IMG/VR virus record: IMGVR_UViG_3300025322_000113
Location: 1 to 31,410 of that record
From: a virus
Strand: one strand, 5' to 3'
DNA: 31,410 nucleotides
Part shown: positions 3,021-30,078 of the stretch, one piece after another
How positions within the stretch are numbered: the stretch's first letter is position 1
Layout of the letters: each line of letters begins with the position of its first letter
The notes under the pieces: model-generated
The model's input: only the letters and a program-made list of their open reading frames with translations
Database searches by the model: none
What the model was told of the DNA's origin: nothing
Translations under genes and position numbers: made by a program

Positions 3021-5229
3021 AGACCTGTTCCAAAGCCTTAGCCCTCAACTTTCGGAGGTCGCCTAACAACTCCCCCCGCTCGGCTTCCGCTTTGGCTTTG
3101 GCCTCTGTCAATAACTCCGCAGCTCTCTTCTGGGCGGACTCTAGTATACTAGAGCTTTCGTCCATCGCCTTTTGTTTTTCCTGGGTCAATTCGGCTTTAA
3201 TAGTTTCTGCTTGTTCCTGTAGTTTGGCCTCGGTTTCTTTTAACAGTCGCCCGTACACCTCGGACTTGGCGGTTGAAGGGATATACAGTACATCGCATCG
3301 GCAATTAGGATGAGCAGGTACGTCCTGGTCCCCAGAATTGAATGGCTGGTCTTTAGGTATGGCTCCCTCGTCTTCATTAGCTTGGCAAATCTCGCACGCA
3401 CCGGCGGTAAGTAACCACCTTTTGTCCTGTACGTTATCGTCTGACAATGCTACTTCATAACTTCCCTCGGCATAGGCGGCGGCAGTTTCGGTTCTGGCAA
3501 TTCTCTCGGCCATGAATTTATTACCAGCTTCAAAGAACTCGGATATTGAATTAGTTATCTCGCCGATCCCATCACCCTGAGCTACTCCCTCGGCTATTCT
3601 CCGGCGCATCTCTTCTGTTACCGTGGAGTTCACGGAAGTAACGGCCATTAAACCTCTTTCTCTTATAAAATCTACCGCCCTGGGATTATCTAGGCTAAAG
3701 CTAATCTGGGAAGCAAGCCTGGCAATCTGATTCTCTGCCGCCTTTTGTATTGCAGTCTTATGTGTGTCTTCTAGTTGCAGTTGCAAGTCTACAAACGCTG
3801 GCCCCAATGCTCCGAATACTAACCGGACAAGATCATCTGTCTTACCCTTGGTAACCGACTTCTGTTCTCCTAAAGCCGCCACGGCCAGAGCGTGCATCTC
3901 CGCATAAATCTTTTCATATAACGGCTGTTGTCGTTTTATCTCATTATTTACCCACCGGACTCGGCTCTCTACTGCCTTTAGACTTTCAATCGGAACGTCC
4001 TTTTTAATCGCCTTCATGCTCCGGCTTTCCTGCGTTTCACCAAGAGGAAGCATTAATGAACTGATAAATACTTGGTCGCCATTTTCAACCGGAGGTAAGT
4101 CCCTCTCTGCCCTAGCTTCATTCGGAGTCAGCCACCCACTTCTCAATCCACTCTCAATCGTTCTATTTTCAAGGTCAACGTCTTCCGGTACCGGATCTTC
4201 AAAATCAAAATATAGTTTTGTCGGATCTTCATTAAATAACGGGATGTAAAATTCATTCAGGGTATCAACGACAAACTGCATCCTCGGTTTAATAACCCTC
4301 TTAGCAAATACATATTCGCCCGCTTCGGCATTGGCTCGGTTTACATCCTCACTAATTCCTAAAATAGTCTTAGGAACCCTGAACATTGCCATAATTTCAT
4401 CTCGGCTGTATTTACGGCTCTCCAAGAACTCCATCTCCTTATTCGTCATCTGCATCGGCTTATAGGTAAGTCCCCCCTGTAATATCGCTAACTTATGTGA
4501 ATTATTTATGCCCGTGTAATTAGAGTCCCAGTTCGCCTTCAATCTCTGAAATTGATCCTCTGTTAATTCGTTCGGAGTTTCTAATACCGCAGAGGGGATG
4601 GCGGAATTAAAATAGAACTTCCTCTGCCACTGTCCGGCAAAGTCGTCAGCGTCAATCGCCATCGCCGCCGCCGCAACCGTTCCCATTCCCCGATAACGGT
4701 TGAGTGGATTGAATCTCTTAAAATGGACAATCTCGGAACTCTCCAACGGTACCATTGCCCCCTTCTCATTTTGATAAACATAGCCGGATACTACTTCTTG
4801 TGCGCTTTTAACTATATGCATCCGTGTCGGATCAAGTAGCCAAATCTCCCCCGGCTTCTGTGTTACCTTGCCCTTGGGAAGATACCAAAAAGTATTGCCC
4901 TCTAATTCCAAATAAGACTGGGTGCCAAGCATTAATTGGCTAGAGGTAGTGAAATTATTTACATTATTAATCAGTTTATAGGCAATATGTTCCGGTGCGG
5001 GTACGGCTTCGCCCTTGGCGTTTTTCCGAAACAACATCAGCTCCATATTGGCAATCTCTTCTGCTATGGAGTTGACGCAGGTATAAACCCAGCTTTTATA
5101 TGCAGCTAAATATGCACGCCCCTTCATCTCTGGGGGTTCATTCCCAGTCAAAAAAGAAAACACATTAGGATTGAACTCTTTTTTGAGTACGCTTGATACC
5201 CCACCGATCAACTTACTTAGAATGTTCAT
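3004..5229 (-). CDS. Portal protein fused to MuF-like head morphogenesis domain, 741 aa
   Basis: Residues about 35-400 match the HK97-type portal family in order and content: YKSWVYTCVNSIAEEIA, EIVHFKRFNPLNRYRGMGTV, RKYSRDEIMAMFRVPKTILG, and LTPNEARAERDLPPVENGD. The portal forms the dodecameric vertex through which DNA is packaged. Residues about 420-650 form a helical linker and a MuF/SPP1 gp7-type domain ending in RIARTETAAAYAEGS, CEICQ (Cys612, Cys615) and AHPNCRCD (His640, Cys643, Cys645). Residues 660-741 are a charged coiled coil. The two functions are normally encoded by adjacent genes. A late-type promoter lies directly upstream and the ATG is probably leaderless. Confidence 0.9.
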   Translation of the reverse strand: MNILSKLIGGVSSVLKKEFNPNVFSFLTGNEPPEMKGRAYLAAYKSWVYTCVNSIAEEIANMELMLFRKNAKGEAVPAPEHIAYKLINNVNNFTTSSQLMLGTQSYLELEGNTFWYLPKGKVTQKPGEIWLLDPTRMHIVKSAQEVVSGYVYQNEKGAMVPLESSEIVHFKRFNPLNRYRGMGTVAAAAMAIDADDFAGQWQRKFYFNSAIPSAVLETPNELTEDQFQRLKANWDSNYTGINNSHKLAILQGGLTYKPMQMTNKEMEFLESRKYSRDEIMAMFRVPKTILGISEDVNRANAEAGEYVFAKRVIKPRMQFVVDTLNEFYIPLFNEDPTKLYFDFEDPVPEDVDLENRTIESGLRSGWLTPNEARAERDLPPVENGDQVFISSLMLPLGETQESRSMKAIKKDVPIESLKAVESRVRWVNNEIKRQQPLYEKIYAEMHALAVAALGEQKSVTKGKTDDLVRLVFGALGPAFVDLQLQLEDTHKTAIQKAAENQIARLASQISFSLDNPRAVDFIRERGLMAVTSVNSTVTEEMRRRIAEGVAQGDGIGEITNSISEFFEAGNKFMAERIARTETAAAYAEGSYEVALSDDNVQDKRWLLTAGACEICQANEDEGAIPKDQPFNSGDQDVPAHPNCRCDVLYIPSTAKSEVYGRLLKETEAKLQEQAETIKAELTQEKQKAMDESSSILESAQKRAAELLTEAKAKAEAERGELLGDLRKLRAKALEQVYEKSE

Positions 5230-5235
5230 GTTTTT

Positions 5236-5265
5236 ATTTTATCCTGCCCGACCTCCATTTTTATA
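5236..5265 (-). promoter_or_regulatory. Phage late promoter upstream of portal gene
   Basis: On the minus strand TATAAAA (5265-5259) is followed by exactly 17 nt, then TAAAAT (5241-5236), then AAAAAC and the ATG of the portal gene. The same three-part arrangement occurs at 22389-22418 and 30049-30078. A transcript starting 6-7 nt after the hexamer would begin at the start codon. A GGAGG lies in the spacer but is too far from the ATG to be its ribosome-binding site. The rest of the 92-bp gap between terminase and portal holds nothing else I recognise. Confidence 0.65.
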
Positions 5266-5321: not shown

Positions 5322-6662
5322 TTAAATGAACCTTATCCCCGCCCTTGGTTTCCCGTGGACAAAGGTCAGCATTAGGCTGTCGGCATAGTCGGGCGATTTG
5401 CCAGTTCTCTGTATCAACTCATCTTTGGGCTCTATCTGTAGAACCTTATCGGTTGTTACTTTATATTTCATCCATCCCAGCTGATTAAGACCATCGTTTC
5501 TGATAAGTTTCCCTCCGGCAATCAACCAATTCCGCAAACTCCAAAACGCCTCTGCTTTTATATTCTTGAACCGTGTCTTATCCTGCGGAAACTCGCCAAC
5601 AGATACCCCGTTAACCAATAACCCTTTCTCTTTTAGACGGTCAGTTACTCCCCGACCCACGCCGATATCGTCAATAAATACATTCTGCGCTTCTATTTTG
5701 TGTGTCTCCATCAGATTTGTAATCTCGTTTACATTTGACATAGTATCTTGGCTCCGGTTCTTACTGGCGACCCAAGCCACATTGTTGGCTCGGATAGTGA
5801 AGACGTTATAATCTCCTCCCGCACCAATATCGCATCCTAGTTTAAGTTCGCCCTCCGGCTTTAATTCATCAACCACGGCCTTAATATAGTCTTCGTCTGT
5901 GATAAGAAACCTATAGCCACGAGCGTCTATGGCATCGGCTTCTGGAAACTTACAGGCATAGTAAACATCAAAGAACGCCTCACTTCGCATCTCGTCAATA
6001 AACTCTGGACTGTATCTTCCCTCCTGTAATCCTACCTGATAATCAATAAAAATCTTTTTGTAATTAGACTGGTTCCAGGTACGGAGAAAGTGGTTGCGGT
6101 AAAATGGGTTGCCAATTTCTAGTAAGAAAGTATCACGGTACGCATACCCTCCCGCCATACGTTTGACCGTGGAATATAACGGGTCATCAATCAATGAGCT
6201 TTCATCTAGGATTAATCTATTGCCACCAAATCCCAGTGTAGCCTCTAAACTTCGCTTGGCGTTTCTAGCATCTAGCGTCAGGGTTTGTATTCCACCCCCA
6301 CTGGTAAAGGTTATATGGTTTCGGCTCCGTTCCCTCCGTAGTCTATCTAGGCTGGTATTCTGATCTAATTCTAGGGAGTTGAGGAATATGTTGGAATCAA
6401 AACAATGGTCAATAATATATCCCATGATAATTGACGCTTTCTTCTCGGACGGAGCCATGATTGTAAACCTCTCTCCCATAGCACAAGCACTTGCTAATAC
6501 AGCTACGGCCACGGTTAAACTCTTCCCGTATTGGGTCGGAGCTATAACCTGTACTCTCTGCCCGTCTAAATCTACAATGCAGTCAAATATCTGCTTCTGG
6601 CTTGGTGACAAGATTAGAGGCTTATTATTAAGTCTAAATATATGACTAAAATCATCCGTCAT
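5322..6662 (-). CDS. terL: Terminase large subunit, 446 aa
   Basis: This is the ATP-driven DNA packaging motor and headful or cos nuclease. The N-terminal ATPase has a Walker A-like loop APTQYGKS (residues 41-48), Walker B LILDES with Asp153-Glu154, and a GNP coupling motif (184-186). The C-terminal RNase H-like nuclease shows the expected acidic residues: Asp278 in LGCDIG, Asp331/Asp332 in VFIDDIG, and Asp425/Asp428 in SPDYADS. Length is normal for the family. The start overlaps the small subunit gene by 11 nt, indicating coupled translation. Confidence 0.95.
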   Translation of the reverse strand: MTDDFSHIFRLNNKPLILSPSQKQIFDCIVDLDGQRVQVIAPTQYGKSLTVAVAVLASACAMGERFTIMAPSEKKASIIMGYIIDHCFDSNIFLNSLELDQNTSLDRLRRERSRNHITFTSGGGIQTLTLDARNAKRSLEATLGFGGNRLILDESSLIDDPLYSTVKRMAGGYAYRDTFLLEIGNPFYRNHFLRTWNQSNYKKIFIDYQVGLQEGRYSPEFIDEMRSEAFFDVYYACKFPEADAIDARGYRFLITDEDYIKAVVDELKPEGELKLGCDIGAGGDYNVFTIRANNVAWVASKNRSQDTMSNVNEITNLMETHKIEAQNVFIDDIGVGRGVTDRLKEKGLLVNGVSVGEFPQDKTRFKNIKAEAFWSLRNWLIAGGKLIRNDGLNQLGWMKYKVTTDKVLQIEPKDELIQRTGKSPDYADSLMLTFVHGKPRAGIRFI

Positions 6663-9953: not shown

Positions 9954-10466
9954 TCATACTTTGTGTCCCCAGCACATCTCGTCATCGGTTAATCCCACCA
10001 CCCACTTACCGCAATCCTTACACCTGTGGATACTAGGATAGGCTAGTCTGGTATCAAATCCCTGATTGGCCGTTTCCTCTTTAAGTTCTAACTTTAGATC
10101 GGACGGACTTAAACTCTCGGCCTTAGATAAAAATACCTCGGCGATATCTTTGTCTACGTCTTTAATCGCCGGAGCAACCAACTGTAGTTTATAAAAAGGT
10201 ACTAATGCTACCCGTTCTCTGGAAAAACCATATTTTTCTACAAAAATCTCATAAATAGAAATGTATGAGTAGGCCGTTGATTCTTTGAGTCCAATTTCGG
10301 GAGCGGAGAGGAATGATAAAAAACTGGGATGCTGTAATGCCTCATACAGCTTGTTATCTCTAAAGTCCTTTAGTAGTGCGCCTAGGGAAAGAAACAACCC
10401 ACCTTGGACTTTAAGTGCCGCCTTAATAGCTTCGTACCTCTCATTTACAGCTTGTATGTCGGTCAT
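9954..10466 (-). CDS. Helical protein with C-terminal zinc ribbon, 170 aa
   Basis: The ATG follows the TAA of the ssDNA-binding gene directly (TAAATG). The first ~125 residues are predicted helical (VNERYEAIKAALKVQGGLFL, then GLKESTAYSYISIYEIFVEK). This resembles phage proteins of the DUF3102/KorB-like helical DNA-binding sort, which I cannot confirm. The C-terminus carries CKDCGKWV and CWGH (Cys149, Cys152, Cys165, His168), a probable zinc knuckle. Operon position between ssDNA-binding protein and MerR-like regulator suggests a DNA transaction role. Confidence 0.55.
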   Translation of the reverse strand: MTDIQAVNERYEAIKAALKVQGGLFLSLGALLKDFRDNKLYEALQHPSFLSFLSAPEIGLKESTAYSYISIYEIFVEKYGFSRERVALVPFYKLQLVAPAIKDVDKDIAEVFLSKAESLSPSDLKLELKEETANQGFDTRLAYPSIHRCKDCGKWVVGLTDDEMCWGHKV

Positions 10467-11084
10467 TTATAAGTCGTCTGGAATTTGATCCGCAAGACTA
10501 GCTCCTGTCGTATCGCTGGGTATGTCTTCAACTACTGTATGGGACTCCTTGCCTTTGCCTACGGTTAGTCCTTTGGCTTTCTCCAAGGCCTCCTCCTGTT
10601 CTTCGGTTAGGTCAACTTTGTCTAGTCTTCTGGTAACGTAATAATTTCCGGTGACTTCGGTTCTCTCTACTCCCCAGGCACAGCCAAAGACATCAACCCC
10701 ATCGTCTTTATAACCAACGATTGTCCAGTGAACGCTAGGAGCGGTTTGGAATATGCCGGCGGTATTATTATTTAGATTAAGTATCGGGTAAAAGAACGTG
10801 GCTTGCGGTTTTAGTTTGTTAGCAACTTCCATTTGTTTTTTATCATCTCCGGCAACTTGTCTCATGGCTTGCCACTGGTCACAAAAAGTACATGGGGTTT
10901 TGTTATCGGGAGAGTTATATTTGTCACACAGCACGGATTCTTTGTCTCCTATCCAATGCTTAGTTTCATATTTAGGGGGAGCGGCGATTATAAATCTGAT
11001 CTTCTCGCCCTTCGCCGTAAGTTTAATATAAAGGCCTCCGGCTCTCGGTACATTCAGGTTTTTATCAAATCCCGCTTCTTGCAT
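10467..11084 (-). CDS. gp32-like single-stranded DNA-binding protein, 205 aa
   Basis: The protein combines an OB-like beta region (KIRFIIAAPPKYETKHWIG to ATFFYPILNLNNN) with a zinc site His43-x9-Cys53-x11-Cys65-x2-Cys68. The same order of ligands occurs in T4 gp32 (His-x12-Cys-x9-Cys-x2-Cys). A helical acidic segment follows (TEEQEEALEKAKG) and the protein ends in an acidic tail (SLADQIPDDL), like the protein-interaction tails of SSB and gp32. It would coat ssDNA in phage replication or recombination. A strong extended -10 promoter stands 11 nt before the ATG; no good Shine-Dalgarno is seen. Confidence 0.7.
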   Translation of the reverse strand: MQEAGFDKNLNVPRAGGLYIKLTAKGEKIRFIIAAPPKYETKHWIGDKESVLCDKYNSPDNKTPCTFCDQWQAMRQVAGDDKKQMEVANKLKPQATFFYPILNLNNNTAGIFQTAPSVHWTIVGYKDDGVDVFGCAWGVERTEVTGNYYVTRRLDKVDLTEEQEEALEKAKGLTVGKGKESHTVVEDIPSDTTGASLADQIPDDL

Positions 11085-11088
11085 ACTC

Positions 11089-11116
11089 TTAACAGATTAT
11101 ACCATAATTGTATAAA
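11089..11116 (+). promoter_or_regulatory. Sigma-70-like promoter on the plus strand, driving the structured RNA
   Basis: TTAACA (11089-11094), a 16-nt spacer and TATAAA (11111-11116) form a good consensus-type promoter pointing rightward, against all genes. The start would be near 11123, about 12 nt before the first base of the pseudoknot helix. The minus-strand -10 of the ssDNA-binding gene lies inside this spacer, so the two promoters cannot be occupied at once. Confidence 0.5.
11096..11104 (-). promoter_or_regulatory. Extended -10 promoter for the ssDNA-binding operon
   Basis: On the minus strand TGGTATAAT is an extended -10 with a perfect TATAAT (11101-11096). The expected start near 11089 leaves only about 5 nt before the ATG at 11084. 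No -35 resembling TTGACA is present at the right distance; the upstream DNA is an AT repeat. It should drive the ssDNA-binding, zinc-ribbon and MerR-like genes, and perhaps the genes beyond. Confidence 0.6.
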
Positions 11117-11122
11117 TATATA

Positions 11123-11497
11123 TATACCTAAAATCAAGTGGCATCTGGACAGGTCTGTTACTCTCCGCCCCGTGGGTCTGACAGCGGAAATTAAGGCTGT
11201 TGACTTCGGAATTTGCACAATTTTCCTACTAAACAGCCAAGCCCCACTTGTCCTTAACCAGATGCCGATCGTATCTTACCACGCTGATAGATGGGGGCAA
11301 GGTTTGACTTGCAGGTTGCTTTGAAACTTACTCACGGAGTAGAAGTATCAACCTTCACGCTCCAGGGGTTGGGATTAAGACGTCGTATGAGTCCCCAACA
11401 TAACTCCGTTGTCTTTGCGGTTCACTGTCCGCACCCCATCTATCAATTTGTAAAGTACGATCAATCTCTGATCTGGCCCAAATGCGACAAAGGGCCA
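11123..11497 (+). ncRNA. Large multi-branched structured RNA candidate
   Basis: This region has no convincing gene but is full of inverted repeats. Domain 1: a 9-bp helix (11140-11148 with 11258-11266) plus CAAGT/ACTTG (11135-11139 with 11246-11250), which together form a pseudoknot with adjoining 5' strands. Inside are hairpins 11164-11188 and 11195-11238. Domain 2: a perfect 12-bp helix (11285-11296 with 11434-11445) enclosing hairpins 11297-11312, 11314-11353, 11368-11399 and 11416-11433. ACGGAGT (11334-11340) can also pair with ACTCCGT (11403-11409). Domain 3: hairpins 11459-11473 and 11474-11497. The strand is inferred from the plus promoter at 11089-11116. The overall style recalls large phage RNAs such as ROOL and GOLLD, but no identity is shown. 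No intrinsic terminator was found. Confidence 0.5.
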
Positions 11498-11509
11498 AAC
11501 CGCAGACTA

Positions 11510-15591: not shown

Positions 15592-15597
15592 ATTATA
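15592..15597 (-). promoter_or_regulatory. -10 element for leaderless RecB-like nuclease gene
   Basis: A perfect TATAAT on the minus strand (15597-15592) is followed by GAAGCT and ATG. The preceding GTAG is shared with the promoter at 16287-16292. A TTGACA lies at 15627-15622 but the spacing (24 nt) is too long; TATATA stands at the normal -35 position. The 57-bp gap between genes holds nothing else. Confidence 0.5.
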
Positions 15598-16979: not shown

Positions 16980-17028
16980 TCATTTTGTGTAACATATTCT
17001 GTAATAGTCTGGCAACATCCAAACTAAA

Positions 17029-17057
17029 TTGATTTTTAGGTACAAACCGGATAACAT
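17029..17057 (+). promoter_or_regulatory. Candidate plus-strand promoter
   Basis: TTGATT (17029-17034), exactly 17 nt, and TAACAT (17052-17057) form a moderate promoter on the plus strand, 4 of 6 matches in each hexamer. Transcription would start near 17064, just before the 71-nt three-way junction. Confidence 0.35.
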
Positions 17058-17063
17058 TGTATC

Positions 17064-17145
17064 AATCCACCGCCAGTATAAGCCCATCGTTGGATTAGCG
17101 ATTGGCACAGCCCTTGTTAAAAAGGACTCAATGCTGGCGGTTTTT
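17064..17145 (+). ncRNA. Candidate small RNA with three-way junction and T-run end
   Basis: An 11-bp closing helix with one U-G pair (17069-17079 with 17131-17141) encloses two hairpins: 17082-17106 (8 bp, one mismatch, 9-nt loop) and 17109-17128 (CCTT/AAGG core). TTTTT follows the closing helix (17141-17145), so the helix can serve as its own terminator. The U-G pair in the closing helix favours the plus strand; one mismatch in the second hairpin would instead be a wobble on the minus strand. It does not have tRNA arms. If read on the minus strand it would be the 5' leader of the HNH-like gene. Confidence 0.4.
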
Positions 17146-17146
17146 C

Positions 17147-17303
17147 ATTGTCAACTCCCGCTCGCTATTGTCAACTAGTTGTAAACTCCCTATAAAAGTT
17201 GTTAACAAGTTATAAACAATTTTCTTAGCCACGACCCACGCTAGTTATAAACAATTATCCTCGCCCTACTACTAGTTATTAAGAATAATAATAATTATTA
17301 TTA
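17147..17303. repeat. Iteron-like AT-rich block, possible replication origin
   Basis: ATTGTCAACT occurs at 17147-17156 and 17167-17176, exactly 20 bp apart. AGTTATAAACAATT occurs at 17208-17221 and 17243-17256. Palindromes CAACTAGTTG (17172-17181), TTGTTAACAA (17199-17208) and TAATAATAATTATTATTA (17286-17303) lie between and after. Repeats in phase with the helix, followed by an easily melted AT tract, are typical of replication origins or clustered operators. TTATAAACA differs from the DnaA box TTATCCACA at two positions. Confidence 0.4.
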
Positions 17304-17340
17304 ACTACCCCTGTTAGAAGAGAAGTAAGTGTAAATATAA

Positions 17341-17500
17341 GCGATTGCTTCAGCCGAAATTTTCATTTCGGGGGTAACTCCCTCCTATCGCCTGAAGGGC
17401 CATGTCGCCTTTCTACTTATTAACTTCCCCTGCCGATGGTGTACCAGTACGGCTCTGGGTATCGTTAGTTCGGACGGGTCGTCATTTGTTTTCGCAAGCC
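17341..17500. other. Structured noncoding stretch with possible pseudoknot
   Basis: GCGAT (17341-17345) pairs with ATCGC (17387-17391) and CTTCAG (17348-17353) with CTGAAG (17392-17397). The two helices cross, so they form a pseudoknot or two exclusive folds. Between them is a perfect 7-bp hairpin CCGAAAT/ATTTCGG (17354-17371). Further right, TACCAG/CTGG-TA with a 7-nt loop and CGGGT/ACCCG add more stems. On the minus strand this is the 3' flank of the 78-aa gene. I see no open frame worth calling and no match to a riboswitch I know. Confidence 0.35.
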
Positions 17501-17511
17501 ACCCGACACTC

Positions 17512-17748
17512 TCAAGTTGCCCACTTGCGCTTTAGATTTTCTAAAGTTTTAAGAATTTCGTTTTTAGCCTCTTCTGCCTGTTCTTTAGTTTTGAAACAAT
17601 TAAAACTAATTGCCATTAAAAAGTGAGGGTTATTATTTTTTTTATTTTCACTATTCAACCACCGTGCCGAAAATACACGCATTGTTCTGGAAACGTACCA
17701 AAATAGTTCTTTTTCTTTTGGTTGCCAAATTTTATTATCTAACACCAT
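17512..17748 (-). CDS. Hypothetical protein, 78 aa
   Basis: It starts MVLDNKIWQPKEKELFWYVS and continues with a strand-rich core and FKTKEQAEEAKNEILKTLEN. This pattern (P.eGe.YWYi...G.v....w.......fkTkeeAe.a.) is common in small phage and prophage proteins of unknown function. The start codon is immediately preceded by a T-run and a 9-bp hairpin whose 3' arm contains the only Shine-Dalgarno-like sequence (GGGGA). Expression should therefore depend on read-through or opening of that hairpin. It is isolated between two noncoding regions. Confidence 0.62.
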   Translation of the reverse strand: MVLDNKIWQPKEKELFWYVSRTMRVFSARWLNSENKKNNNPHFLMAISFNCFKTKEQAEEAKNEILKTLENLKRKWAT

Positions 17749-17786
17749 AAAAAAATCCCCAACGCCGTTGCCACAACCATTGGGGA
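17749..17786 (-). terminator. Intrinsic terminator abutting a start codon
   Basis: On the minus strand TCCCCAATG (17786-17778) pairs with CGTTGGGGA (17764-17756); one U-G pair works only on this strand. An inner GTTG/CAAC stem closes on a 3-nt loop. Seven Ts (17755-17749) follow and then the ATG of the 78-aa gene. It can end the late tail-lysis operon that finishes at 18180, and it also hides the GGGGA ribosome-binding site of the next gene. Confidence 0.65.
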
Positions 17787-17920
17787 ATTTCCCTGATTAT
17801 GTAGCAACGGTCAATTAAAAGCAACATATAACTTTTTTGTCTATATGTAAACAACCAAAATAGTCACCTGATTTTTTTCTGACTTTTTTCTGCACCGGCT
17901 TGCAATGGAGTCTAATATGT

Positions 17921-18003
17921 AGGGGGAAACTGGGGTATTGGGACAAAGGGAATCATCTGCGCCCCTCGTGGCGTAGACTTCCTCGCCGTATTCCGGTTTC
18001 CCT
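17921..18003 (+). other. Plus-strand structured segment
   Basis: GGGAAACTGG (17924-17933) pairs with CCGGTTTCCC (17993-18002), 10 bp with one U-G pair that works only on the plus strand. It encloses an 8-bp hairpin (17956-17963 with 17970-17977) with a G-U pair, again valid only on the plus strand, and a 6-nt loop. TAATAT at 17913-17918 could be a -10, but the -35 is poor. It may be the 5' part of the RNA ending at 18102. A 7-bp AT hairpin at about 17825-17846 lies upstream. No gene is seen in 17787-18179. Confidence 0.4.
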
Positions 18004-18010
18004 AATGCTA

Positions 18011-18039
18011 TTGACACACAACCGACTTGAAATTAATAT
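18011..18039 (+). promoter_or_regulatory. Plus-strand sigma-70-like promoter
   Basis: A perfect TTGACA (18011-18016), exactly 17 nt, and TAATAT (18034-18039) point rightward. The start would be near 18046. The terminator-like hairpin at 18074-18102 follows on the same strand. Confidence 0.5.
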
Positions 18040-18045
18040 ACACGA

Positions 18046-18102
18046 AGCCCTTGTCGCAAGCCTTGGGTCAGAGAGCCGCCAGCAATGGTGGCTTTCGCTT
18101 TT
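18046..18102 (+). ncRNA. Candidate short plus-strand RNA
   Basis: The segment between the plus promoter and the plus terminator would give an RNA of about 55-60 nt. It has a small CTTG/CAAG hairpin near its 5' end (18050-18060) and ends in the GCAA-loop terminator stem. It has no open frame. It could be a regulatory RNA or a decoy, or a leader whose target lies elsewhere; nothing in it identifies a known family. Confidence 0.38.
18074..18102 (+). terminator. Intrinsic terminator on the plus strand
   Basis: AGCCGCCA (18074-18081), loop GCAA (18082-18085), TGGTGGCT (18086-18093) form an 8-bp stem with a GNRA loop, followed by TTCGCTTTT. The single G-U pair in the stem is valid only on the plus strand. 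This supports real transcription against the gene direction. Confidence 0.55.
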
Positions 18103-18144
18103 ATCGGGTATATATAAACCTGGACACAAACTCCGCCCCGCAAG

Positions 18145-18176
18145 CCAATCTATGCATTTTTACACCAATCTATGCA
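18145..18176. repeat. Two direct repeats CCAATCTATGCA, 20 bp apart
   Basis: CCAATCTATGCA occurs at 18145-18156 and 18165-18176, separated by exactly 20 bp from start to start. The same spacing is seen for the ATTGTCAACT pair at 17147-17176. It lies just beyond the stop of the holin-like gene. Two copies in phase suggest a protein-binding site rather than a CRISPR array. Confidence 0.45.
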
Positions 18177-18179
18177 AAT

Positions 18180-18464
18180 CTAGTCTCCTGTTTCATAGAT
18201 TCTCTCTGTCCCGTACTTTCGCAGAATAGCTAAAATCTGGCTTAGAAACCAAGTTGCTATAGATCCCTGTGTTATCTGGTTCGGTATAAAATCGGCCCAG
18301 GTAAATCCGTCTGCTATCGCAGTTTGTACGGCAGTAAAGTAAATCAATGCCACCGGAATTAAAAACAAGGCTCCGGTTTTTAACCAAGAAACAATATCCT
18401 GATATAAAAGTTTTCCTTTTGGAGAAACGATGGCCGTTATTTTTTCTGTGTTGGGTTGTCCCAT
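18180..18464 (-). CDS. Putative holin, 94 aa
   Basis: The ATG has a good Shine-Dalgarno (GGAGGTGAT) upstream. The protein has two hydrophobic segments, residues about 29-50 (TGALFLIPVALIYFTAVQTA) and 66-82 (GSIATWFLSQILAILRKY), with a charged N-terminal region and short polar tail. Small size, two membrane helices and position next to an amidase fit a holin, which forms membrane lesions to release the endolysin. It is the last gene of the tail-lysis operon before the noncoding region. Confidence 0.68.
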   Translation of the reverse strand: MGQPNTEKITAIVSPKGKLLYQDIVSWLKTGALFLIPVALIYFTAVQTAIADGFTWADFIPNQITQGSIATWFLSQILAILRKYGTERIYETGD

Positions 18465-18924: not shown

Positions 18925-19740
18925 TTAGCGACTCAAGGCCTCTTTGACCTTGCGGTATTTCACCCACCACCAGCCGCTTCCGTTCATAACTGTATCTATT
19001 TCATAGAGTTTTGCTTTAACGGTATCTAGTTCCTTCTTGATATTTTCACACGGGTCAACCGGCGGAGTCGGTGGAACTGGAGGCGGTGTAGGACTGGGTG
19101 GTGGGGCAGGTGGTGGAGTTGCAACTACCGGACTAGGACTAGGATAGCCGCTCCAATTGTCTTGTATGATTCTAGTTCTAAGATTATCCCCAGCAACTTT
19201 CCAGTTGCTACCAGGGCAGGCAGTAGCGGTAGCCCCCGGAAACTTCGGATGTTGGTATGTGTCTTGGTGTCCGATAACACAGTCCCATCCCGTTAGTTGC
19301 GGAAAGGCCTCTAACCCCAATAAGAAGGTGCAGAGTAAATACGCCGAATGGACTTGGTTTGCAGTCGGAAGTTCTTTTGTAAAATCGCCCACAAAACAAA
19401 TGCCTATCTCGTGGTCGTTATTATTGGCAACATTACTTCCCCCGTGGCTTAAATCCCCGACATAAGCGACCGTACCGTCAGAGCAAATGATAAGTCTGTA
19501 CCCAATTCCGCCCCAACCCCTTCCGTCAACGTGTAGGTGGGCGATCTTGTCACACTCCGCTCGCCAATTACCGTCGCTCTTGGCGGTCTGTGCAGTAACG
19601 GAGTGGTGCATGACCACGAAATCAACCTTGTCAGCAACGAGTACCGGCCCCCACGAAAAGCTATCGCCATAAATCGCCTGTCGGTAGTCCTGCCATTTCC
19701 CGATCGCAGAGAGTGTCGGTATCTGTAATTCAACCGCCAT
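18925..19740 (-). CDS. Endolysin, N-acetylmuramoyl-L-alanine amidase (PGRP/amidase_2), 271 aa
   Basis: The catalytic domain (about 35-195) shows the T7-lysozyme-type zinc site: His45 in FVVMHHSVT, His158 in CVIGHQDTY, and Cys175 in TATACPGSNW. GGIGYRLIICSDGTVAYVGD (77-96) is the typical core, with Tyr81 near the active site. It cleaves the bond between muramic acid and L-alanine in peptidoglycan. A Pro-rich linker (199-229) leads to a short helical C-terminal segment (CENIKKELDTVKAKLYEIDT) of unknown binding role. No signal peptide is seen, so release depends on a holin. The -10 TATAAT stands 6 nt before ATG. Confidence 0.9.
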   Translation of the reverse strand: MAVELQIPTLSAIGKWQDYRQAIYGDSFSWGPVLVADKVDFVVMHHSVTAQTAKSDGNWRAECDKIAHLHVDGRGWGGIGYRLIICSDGTVAYVGDLSHGGSNVANNNDHEIGICFVGDFTKELPTANQVHSAYLLCTFLLGLEAFPQLTGWDCVIGHQDTYQHPKFPGATATACPGSNWKVAGDNLRTRIIQDNWSGYPSPSPVVATPPPAPPPSPTPPPVPPTPPVDPCENIKKELDTVKAKLYEIDTVMNGSGWWWVKYRKVKEALSR

Positions 19741-19746
19741 GTTTAT

Positions 19747-19775
19747 ATTATATGCTGGGCAATTAATGGGTTATA
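19747..19775 (-). promoter_or_regulatory. Late-type promoter upstream of endolysin
   Basis: TATAACC (19775-19769), 16 nt, TATAAT (19752-19747), ATAAAC, ATG. This matches the late pattern TATAAAA-N17-TAAAAT-AAAARC-ATG with small changes and a spacer one base shorter. It would allow lysis genes to be transcribed separately from the tail genes. Confidence 0.5.
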
Positions 19776-21562: not shown

Positions 21563-22382
21563 TTTGACCCACGACAAAGCCTTCTGTGTTGGTAGTATCC
21601 AGACAGTTGAATACCAACTCATCAGCTTTATTTGCCGTGAGCGTCAATGTGGGCGCAATCCCATCGGGCCAACTAAGGCTTCCCCACCAAGTAACTGTGC
21701 GGCTTCCAACGCCATCTTGTTTCACCCTAACTACAAAGGTCTTGCCACTGGTTAAATTGGAAAGAGTAAAGGTGCGGTTTCCCGCTATCGTCACTCGGAA
21801 CTTACGACCAAGATTAAGGTCTACATTTATGGTTGCGCCGTCTGTTAAATCAACCCATCCCTCGGTGTAAATGTATGTGTAAAACTGTGGTCTGGTATCG
21901 GTAATGTTTGCATCCAGAATTAGCGTAGCCCCAGAGGCAACAGTAACATTGGCAAGCCGTATAAATGGATTGGACGCACCGATAGCGGTTGAAATATCAC
22001 CGTTAGTAGGAGCAACTGGGGATGCGGCAGGAGTGCCGACTACATCAAACAATTTCACCACGTTAGAAGAATCTGCGTTGGCGGTTTCGGAAAGGTCTAC
22101 ATACAAAACCACTGCGTCAATTCTTGGGTTTCCGGATGAGTTGGCGGCAATCGCTAAAGTCTCATCGGCTGTCGCACGGATAGGATAGGTGCTTGCTCCT
22201 CGGATATAGGCCTTCCCCATTCCCACTAAAACCGTCAGATCGGGGACGGCCTGTTCTACTACTTCAAAATCTGCTCCCATAGCATTGTAGACACCCGATT
22301 GATTCACCAAATCGGTTAGTGTCTGCAAGACCGAAGCCTCTGGGTGGGCCGTACCTCCGCTTCTTAGTGTATATATCGCCAT
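21555..22382 (-). CDS. Tail appendage/fibre protein, 275 aa
   Basis: The N-terminal part (MAIYTLRSGGTAHPEASVLQ to about residue 75) is like baseplate or upper-fibre proteins with a VVEQAVPDLTVLVGMGKAYI stretch. The C-terminal ~100 residues carry the repeat-beta pattern RKFRVTIAGNRTFTLSNLTS, then GKTFVVRVKQDGVGSRTVTW, then WPDGIAPTLTLTANKADEL. That domain ends many phage tail fibres. It is headed by one of the three perfect late promoters. A virion role in host attachment is likely. Confidence 0.72.
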   Translation of the reverse strand: MAIYTLRSGGTAHPEASVLQTLTDLVNQSGVYNAMGADFEVVEQAVPDLTVLVGMGKAYIRGASTYPIRATADETLAIAANSSGNPRIDAVVLYVDLSETANADSSNVVKLFDVVGTPAASPVAPTNGDISTAIGASNPFIRLANVTVASGATLILDANITDTRPQFYTYIYTEGWVDLTDGATINVDLNLGRKFRVTIAGNRTFTLSNLTSGKTFVVRVKQDGVGSRTVTWWGSLSWPDGIAPTLTLTANKADELVFNCLDTTNTEGFVVGQNV

Positions 22383-22388
22383 GTTTTT

Positions 22389-22418
22389 ATTTTAACGGAC
22401 GGGCGGCATATTTTTATA
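22389..22418 (-). promoter_or_regulatory. Phage late promoter upstream of tail appendage gene
   Basis: TATAAAA (22418-22412), 17 nt, TAAAAT (22394-22389), AAAAAC, ATG on the minus strand. Apart from the spacer it is identical to the portal promoter at 5236-5265. The 39-bp gap between genes is fully used by it. Confidence 0.65.
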
Positions 22419-22421
22419 TGC

Positions 22422-22643
22422 TCATGCCTCATCTACTTTAATTTTACCTCTAACTAAATTGACATGGGTATTAATTTCCGACAGTTTATCTTTTAGTAAG
22501 TCTTTCTCCTTGTTCTTTTGTACCCCACGCAATAATCCCGTCATCTGTATTTTCAGCCAATCTTTGACCGTGTAACCCAAGCCATTTATGACCGTCTGTA
22601 CTTCTTCTGGAATCTCAATCTTGAACTTTGTCTTAACAGCCAT
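22422..22643 (-). CDS. Small helical protein, 73 aa
   Basis: It starts MAVKTKFKIEIPEEVQTVIN with a short strand, then GYTVKDWLKIQMTGLLRGVQ and a lysine-rich helix. The form resembles small tail-associated or antitoxin-like helical proteins, without a clear family. Its ATG is preceded by TAAAAT-AAAAAC, the -10 part of the late pattern. It separates two groups of tail appendage genes. Confidence 0.52.
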   Translation of the reverse strand: MAVKTKFKIEIPEEVQTVINGLGYTVKDWLKIQMTGLLRGVQKNKEKDLLKDKLSEINTHVNLVRGKIKVDEA

Positions 22644-22649
22644 GTTTTT

Positions 22650-22655
22650 ATTTTA
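22650..22655 (-). promoter_or_regulatory. Late -10 element without clear -35
   Basis: TAAAAT (22655-22650) then AAAAAC and ATG repeats the late promoter's downstream half exactly. At the -35 position the sequence is AATAGTT, a poor match to TATAAAA. Confidence 0.4.
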
Positions 22656-28267: not shown

Positions 28268-30042
28268 CTTGTATTGCGCAAAATCCAGGCAAGTTTATAA
28301 CCAAGTAAATCAAAGTCCGGCTCGCCTGATAGCGTTGGATTAATTGTAATGGGCTGGTTAAATGTTTGCTGTACTCCCGTGGGGACAGGTGATCTGCCTG
28401 CCTGCATATCTTTGGATAATACAAACTCCCCCTCGTGTAAAAGTACCAGCCCAGTCTGTGGAACGAACCCACCGAATTGCCGACTGGTAAAACCCTTGAC
28501 CCCCGCCTTAACTCCCTCGGCGGCTTTGCTAACAGCACCACTGATAGCATCCTTAATGCTGTTCCACACTCCAATTACTTTGTCGCCAAAATCTTTGATC
28601 CCCTGCCACATCTCGTCAATTTTGGTTTGGATGGCCTTTTGCATTTTAATAAATATCTCCTCGGCTATTCCAGGAAGGGTACTTAGAAACGCTTGTACCT
28701 TCCCAGGCCAAGAGGAAACATTAGTAGTAATCCATGTCCAGAGCTGTGTAAGCAATGCAATTGCTTTTGTTACTAAGTCGGTGAAAATTAAAGCAACCTT
28801 GATCGGAAGTACCGCCATCCACATTATAAAGTTAGCAATCATCTGCGGTATAGCAACGGAAATCCAACCGATAAAATACCCGATAGAGAACGGAAGTGTG
28901 GACAGCCAAAACTCGCTCCATGCGGTACTCACGCTTGTAATAAAACCGGCAATCCCGGCAATAATGTCTGTAATAAAAGTTGTAATTGCGCCCCACATCA
29001 GTTGTACGGATAAAACGATATTGTTTGCCGCCTCTTGGAACATAAACACGATACCCTCCCAATGATGGGCAATAACAACTGCGGCTCCCACTATTACCCC
29101 CACTAACAGAGCAATGCCAGCCACAATCAACGTGACCGTACCGGCAGCGGCTATTAATGCACCAGCCAGCAATACTCCGAAGACAACGGCTAGCGTACTA
29201 ACGGCAATTACAATTGCGGCAACCACCTCCTGGTGTGACTGTAGCCAAGTATTAAACTCGGCTAGTCTAGCGGAGACATTATCAATTCCCCCGACTAAAT
29301 TAAGGAGAGTTTCTACAAACCCCTTACCCAGAGTTTCCTGTATATCGTTAACTGTATTTTTCAAAACGTCTAACTGTCCACCAAATGTTTTTGCAGACTG
29401 GGAGGCAGTACCACTGAATCTATCGCTAAGTTCATCCAGTATGAATCTTTGGGCTTCTGCGGTTTTTCCCACATCCACCATGCCCTTAATCATTTTTTCC
29501 TGATCGTCTGTAAATATAATCCCCTGTCGCCTTAACCTTCCTAGTGCCTCGGCCGGATATGATAAAGCCAATCCCACAGCCTGTGCGGCGGCTCCTAAAT
29601 CTAATTGCATAGCGGCGGCCATATCAACAGTAGCTTGGGTTGCCTCCTGAATTGTCTCCGTTCCTACTCCCAGTCGGAGCATTAAAGTAGAGGCGGAAAC
29701 GATTGCCTCATCAGAAAATCTGGACATAGACTGCAATGACGATGCAAACTCCAATACCCGCTCCTGTACACCCGTTATGTTATCCCCCGTATTTGCAAGA
29801 TTATTTAATGCCGCATTTAATCCAAATACCGCATCCTCGCTCTCCATAAAAGCCTGTACGCTAGTTACCGCAAAAGCAGTAGTAGCGGCCAGTCCTGCGG
29901 CCAAAGCTATTTTGGCATTTTTTAACTGCCCTACCGTGTTCTTGCCAAAACTACTGACGCTATCGGAAACTTGGTTAACAACTTTTGAGGCGTTATCCCT
30001 CGCTTCTAATAAAATCTCCAATGTCCTGCTATCGCTTGCCAT
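28264..30042 (-). CDS. Tape measure protein, 592 aa
   Basis: N-terminal segments (TLEILLEARDNASKVVNQVS, LAATTAFAVTSVQAFMESED, then SRFSDEAIVSASTLMLRLGV and KTFGGQLDVLKNTVNDIQET) are standard for phage tape measure proteins. Two hydrophobic regions (about 270-325 and 330-435) follow, then a helical stretch and a C-terminal part ending FDLLGYKLAWILRNTR. At about 1.5 angstrom per residue the tail would be near 90 nm, so this is a short-tailed siphovirus. It is preceded by a perfect late promoter that overlaps the stop of the chaperone extension. Confidence 0.9.
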   Translation of the reverse strand: MASDSRTLEILLEARDNASKVVNQVSDSVSSFGKNTVGQLKNAKIALAAGLAATTAFAVTSVQAFMESEDAVFGLNAALNNLANTGDNITGVQERVLEFASSLQSMSRFSDEAIVSASTLMLRLGVGTETIQEATQATVDMAAAMQLDLGAAAQAVGLALSYPAEALGRLRRQGIIFTDDQEKMIKGMVDVGKTAEAQRFILDELSDRFSGTASQSAKTFGGQLDVLKNTVNDIQETLGKGFVETLLNLVGGIDNVSARLAEFNTWLQSHQEVVAAIVIAVSTLAVVFGVLLAGALIAAAGTVTLIVAGIALLVGVIVGAAVVIAHHWEGIVFMFQEAANNIVLSVQLMWGAITTFITDIIAGIAGFITSVSTAWSEFWLSTLPFSIGYFIGWISVAIPQMIANFIMWMAVLPIKVALIFTDLVTKAIALLTQLWTWITTNVSSWPGKVQAFLSTLPGIAEEIFIKMQKAIQTKIDEMWQGIKDFGDKVIGVWNSIKDAISGAVSKAAEGVKAGVKGFTSRQFGGFVPQTGLVLLHEGEFVLSKDMQAGRSPVPTGVQQTFNQPITINPTLSGEPDFDLLGYKLAWILRNTR

Positions 30043-30048
30043 GCTTTT

Positions 30049-30078
30049 ATTTTATCGCTTAACCCTGGGAATTTTATA
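30049..30078 (-). promoter_or_regulatory. Phage late promoter upstream of tape measure gene
   Basis: TATAAAA (30078-30072), 17 nt, TAAAAT (30054-30049), AAAAGC, ATG. It lies in the 3' end of the chaperone extension frame, so it is embedded in coding sequence and still keeps all positions of the pattern. Confidence 0.65.

Follow-up and report, generated by a model that had tools for sequence, protein, structure and literature searches.

The 425-nt gap between the genes P0001 and P0002 of a phage genome (the window analysed here is the entire IMG/VR virus record, 31,410 bases) is non-coding and folds non-randomly, and it is probably an RNA gene. The explanation we adopt, with a confidence just above even, is that the gap would encode a structured, independently transcribed plus-strand RNA acting in trans, of which we infer the strand, the ends, the independent promoter and the trans action (Table 1). 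Taken alone, the location of the structured RNA on the plus strand is rather likely. As a single sequence, the RNA is a good candidate, and its plus-strand reading is favoured by the z-scores of the fold, the non-coding frames, the GC content, a -10 box of the phage type, the separate -10 box of P0001 and the opposite-strand tRNA genes of a relative. On the other side stand the lack of any homologue found, a minus-strand fold that is also non-random and has A/G-richer unpaired bases, the lack of a plus-strand terminator and the AT-rich nature of the promoter DNA; the plus-strand RNA is put forward as a prediction.

Table 1. Features of the P0001-P0002 region (positions refer to the window)
Feature	Position	Strand	Remarks
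P0001	10467-11084	-	205 aa; CxxC-containing, acidic tail
Non-coding gap, P0001 to P0002	11085-11509		425 nt; from ORF list and codon statistics
AT-rich spacer	11086-11139		-10-like boxes both ways; divergent promoter candidate
TTAACA-N16-TATAAA, alternative promoter	11089-11116	+	Read from sequence
TATAAT in extended -10 (TGGTATAAT)	11096-11101	-	11 nt ahead of P0001 start codon
TAAAAT -10 box	11129-11134	+	Same box as late genes of the phage; seventh base after it is 11141, one base from the first predicted pair
Domain 1 (predicted)	11140-11266	+	Stem GGCATCT/AGATGCC (9 bp when extended) enclosing GGACAGGT/ACTTGTCC; arms 11155-11184 and 11195-11238
Domain 2 (predicted)	11267-11462	+	Basal helix 11267-11279/11450-11462; perfect 12-bp helix 11285-11296/11434-11445; multiloop with at least four hairpins
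3' hairpin TGGCCC...GGGCCA (predicted)	11474-11497	+	No T run after it
P0002	11510-12523	-	337 aa; N-terminal segment hydrophobic, one stretch rich in proline and threonine; converges on the RNA

The recognisable genes of the phage are all located on the minus strand and encode a portal protein with a Mu-F-like domain, a large terminase, a TET-associated glycosyltransferase and a ParB-like protein, as well as a Cas4-like exonuclease, an amidase, tail proteins, a tape measure protein, Dit and a tail tube protein; it is a tailed phage of the siphovirus type. At about 60-66% identity, its terminase clade comprises many IMG/VR contigs and also one contig from a genome assigned to Candidatus Daviesbacteria (L213, JACQIX010000019.1; terminase at 10001-11332, 63% identity). 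Since this one relative is a contig in a Candidatus Daviesbacteria metagenome bin, the host of the phage is likely to belong to the Patescibacteria (CPR). Neither tRNA nor tmRNA genes were detected by ARAGORN in the 31.4-kb window. P0001 is likely a single-stranded DNA-binding protein (SSB), as suggested by its gene position, its architecture and a weak similarity to relatives matching phrog_1192; a family search with its own sequence gave no match, and its structure prediction has a pLDDT of 34. Family searches with P0002 gave no informative match either; this protein contains the motif ICHATSS...HQNGNDIIP, which we take to be one of CPR surface proteins, together with proline/threonine-rich linkers.

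The preliminary description had reported no convincing gene in about 375 nt of this stretch, and codon statistics derived from the genes of the phage itself agree: all six frames of the gap score as non-coding, at -0.15 to -0.43 per codon, and contain 4-11 stops, whereas the phage genes score +0.11 to +0.33. Two plus-strand ORFs that overlap the gap have codon scores of -0.03 and -0.06. The GC content of positions 11140-11500 is 0.49, compared with 0.44 for the whole genome and 0.16-0.36 for the other short gaps checked, and A, C, G and U are nearly equal in the same stretch. Raised GC and even base use mark the long intergenic gaps where structured RNAs get found (Stav et al. 2019, PMC6429828), and the present region resembles the candidates of that study in its long gap, raised GC, even bases, compact genome and predicted structure, although the classes described there usually have several representatives, whereas the RNA here is a single sequence.

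Besides being non-coding, the region folds better than shuffled sequences, which is the combination looked for in a structured non-coding RNA. On the plus strand, positions 11123-11497 fold with -127.8 kcal/mol (z-score of -4.96), the z-score of 11117-11509 is -4.93 and that of 11140-11500 is -6.0, with 0 of 240 shuffles folding as well. In a structure scan of the whole 31-kb window, the region is one of the top two places. Moreover, eight perfect helices of 7 bp or longer are present in the gap, where 3.0 would be expected; 2 of 150 dinucleotide shuffles reach this number, and none of the 150 has a perfect helix as long as 12 bp.

The predicted plus-strand RNA is composed of two directly adjoining domains (boundary at 11266/11267), whose basal helices can therefore stack. 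The basal stem of domain 1, GGCATCT(GG)/(CC)AGATGCC in its extended form, corresponds to a 9-bp helix described earlier and was found at 11140-11148/11258-11266. The basal pseudoknot attributed to it is not confirmed as described: the complementarity between CAAGTGG (11135-11141) and CCACTTG (11244-11250) is real, yet this pairing and a nested helix of 8 bp, which is more stable (11147-11154/11246-11253, mean pairing probability 0.81), exclude each other, because both need the same 3' side. From the outside to the inside, domain 2 shows a basal helix with one internal mismatch, an internal loop, the perfect 12-bp helix and a multiloop, in which no unpaired base separates the first hairpins and the last one from their neighbours; the 3' hairpin of the domain (5 bp, TTC loop, 11416-11433) is flush with the 12-bp helix. 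Four hairpins of the multiloop have pairing probabilities of 0.83-0.99 and two further ones are weak, as in the earlier picture of a perfect 12-bp helix closing a four-hairpin multiloop.

The spacer upstream of domain 1 is poor in GC (0.20 for 11086-11135), and its plus-strand TAAAAT box ends 5-6 nt ahead of the first pair of domain 1. The motif TANAAT-N6-ATG occurs at seven gene starts of the phage, all on the minus strand. With this spacing, transcription would begin at the start codon itself, so the messages of the phage are probably leaderless, and its late promoters seem to have a distinct motif. The sites of the late type are located at 5225-5241, 19736-19752, 22378-22394, 22639-22655 and 30038-30054, those of the early type at 15597 and 16292, and a TATAAAA is often found about 24 nt upstream of these elements. 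When the same TANAAT-N6-start rule is applied to the plus-strand TAAAAT, a non-coding RNA of about 320-360 nt would be made from the gap, starting at around 11140/11141 from a promoter divergent to P0001, converging with P0002 and having its 3' end at 11462 to about 11500. As for TTAACA-N16-TATAAA, proposed before as a consensus promoter, both boxes are present, but they lie in a spacer of 20% GC where chance boxes are expected, and the promoter scan omits them because the -10 box has no final T. No intrinsic terminator was found on the plus strand 3' of the region. In one related phage (L089), tRNA-Arg and tRNA-Thr (45-119 and 693-767) are encoded on one strand and the other genes on the opposite one.

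The main rival is a minus-strand RNA within the P0002-P0001 transcript, that is, a cis-acting leader or a processing or stability element of P0001, for instance for autogenous control of the SSB, which is an unlikely reading but one of real weight. All the genes lie on the minus strand, no terminator was found between P0002 and P0001, and P0001 is SSB-like by position. The assignment of the RNA to the plus strand in the preliminary description is backed by the stronger z-scores of that strand, although folding alone leaves the strand undecided, given minus-strand z-scores of -3.0 to -4.6 (-4.6 for the longer stretch, -3.8 for 11140-11500). The minus-strand values are consistently weaker, most of all in domain 1 (-1.64 against -3.15 on the plus strand; domain 2, -4.58 against -5.84). 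On the other hand, the 3' hairpin becomes a longer one of 10 bp with two G-U pairs (11470-11501) on the minus strand only, and the unpaired bases of the minus-strand fold (A 0.36, G 0.21) are richer in A and G than those of the plus-strand fold (A 0.31, G 0.12), as expected from known structured RNAs. In phage T4, gp32 exerts autogenous control of the SSB through a short leader pseudoknot; the region described here likewise adjoins a probable SSB gene and is structured, but it exceeds 320 nt, the opposite strand folds better and the -10 box of P0001 is close to the start codon. This separate, divergent -10 box would put the region outside the P0001 message, and the structured region therefore need not be a leader of P0001. 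In addition, the three relatives whose early genes resemble those of the phage most closely (L098, L110 and L243) lack a gap of this kind here, and in the last two the SSB-like gene directly follows the previous one.

An element working at the DNA level, such as a replication origin or a recombination site whose hairpins are used as DNA, would be compatible with the folding of both strands, the neighbouring probable SSB gene in the replication module and the AT-rich stretch at 11086-11135. However, the gap contains no direct repeats or iterons, the GC skew does not turn at 11 kb, and origins do not usually consist of many nested hairpins with loops, all of which makes this explanation improbable.

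Searches for homologues of the RNA gave negative results throughout. There was no match to the RNA region by blastn against phages, and single-protein scans with P0001 and the portal protein gave no close relatives. Alignments of the portal, terminase, nuclease and Cas4-like proteins yielded many relatives, in whose loci (about 3.5 Mb of phage sequence) no such RNA was found by blastn, nhmmer or covariance models of both domains, each built from a single sequence (196 positions for domain 2; 127 for domain 1, the model of which covered all but the last two locus sets). The RNA was likewise absent from the whole contigs of 32 relatives. Among 374 sampled class genomes of the Patescibacteria, domain 2 had no homologue, and one 38-nt match (E 0.085) was taken as chance; neither the DNA of the RNA region nor domain 1 had a homologue in samples of 380 genomes of the phylum. 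When 14 bases of the domain 2 internal loop were used as a pattern, 102 stretches matched, apparently by chance, and the fold was present in none of them. For diverged RNAs, exact patterns and models built from one sequence are weak tools, which had no known homologue as a sensitivity control here, and some of the searches left out records very near the window. Judged by these searches, the RNA appears to be an orphan, either recently acquired or fast-evolving. The lack of conservation and the absence from relatives would also suit a non-functional remnant or filler with fortuitous pairing, a possibility that is likewise improbable, since no plus-strand shuffle matches the fold, the GC of the gap is raised with even base use, and a filler of about 400 nt is rarely kept by phages.

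Structured gaps at similar places in four relatives (L116, L119, L113 and L217) were folded and compared, and they have no sequence in common with the RNA. The one in L116 (80-373, plus strand) is a candidate non-coding RNA in its own right (z-score of -5.7), with two long arms inside an AGAGCAG/CTGCTCT helix and no Rfam match. In L119, the structured stretch (5760-6140, plus strand) is non-coding and lies some 4 kb upstream of the terminase; it has a terminator-like hairpin (AACCCC...GGGGTTTTTC) and no Rfam match. In L217 (90-262, plus strand), an unusually long insert is flanked by ends that resemble the acceptor, D-arm and T-arm of a tRNA-Leu; the whole is closed by a long acceptor helix and is not called by ARAGORN. 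In the window itself, a second, longer and largely non-coding region (16980-18179) harbours at least two plus-strand structured candidates: 17069-17145, which ends in a terminator-like T run (z-score of -4.6), and 17885-18105 (z-score of -4.1; -5.5 for 17821-18180), in which a hairpin at 18071-18096 resembles a terminator.

Large structured RNAs of phages, such as ROOL and GOLLD, are abundant, and their function is mostly not established. A resemblance in style to these two had been pointed out for the gap RNA, together with the advice to search Rfam for ROOL, GOLLD, tmRNA and RNase P, but a kinship finds no support: Rfam 15 gave no match at the gathering threshold in the window, and cmscan of 561 nt with permissive filters at E<=10 returned a single meaningless weak line (E 4.8) and none of these families, while the gap is shorter than 430 nt and the window has no tRNA. 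Like ROOL, the predicted RNA is large, non-coding, rich in hairpins and phage-encoded, but it differs in having no covariance-model match at E<=10 and no relatives; ROOL RNAs, which assemble into homo-oligomeric cages, often occur near tRNA islands of phages or prophages, and here the phage is present but no tRNA is found in 31.4 kb. With GOLLD it shares being a complex RNA encoded by a phage, although many GOLLD RNAs exceed 800 nt (PMC12286853), compared with a gap of 425 nt that has no Rfam match to the conserved 3' domain and no tRNA nearby. Neither ARAGORN nor Rfam detected a tmRNA with its tRNA-like ends and tag reading frame, and the covariance models for the catalytic cores of group I/II introns and RNase P gave no Rfam match at E<=10. 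Membership in a known family, with a divergence beyond the reach of Rfam (ROOL, GOLLD, tmRNA, group I intron, RNase P or a tRNA-like RNA), is thus close to refuted by cmscan and ARAGORN, even if the size would suit a tmRNA or a group I intron and the 12-bp helix with its flush TTC-loop hairpin faintly recalls an acceptor plus T arm. DGRs, retrons and TIGR arrays were set aside by inspection, as the gap has no repeats and no reverse transcriptase was matched among the phage proteins scanned.

If the plus-strand RNA is indeed made, it would act in trans as a stable phage RNA produced alongside the DNA-replication genes, in a manner possibly like that of ROOL. Such an RNA would bind a protein or a ribonucleoprotein, for example the ribosome or the tRNA or RNA-polymerase machinery; a base-pairing mode is disfavoured because it has hardly any long unpaired stretches. 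That it represents a new class, namely a medium-large, two-domain, trans-acting RNA of Patescibacteria phages, unrelated to Rfam families and transcribed against all genes, is a tentative and rather doubtful proposal. No report on structured RNAs from Patescibacteria phages was found in the open-licence literature. If confirmed, this RNA would be a further class, coming from hosts whose genomes are very small and in which RNAs supplied by phages may replace missing functions.
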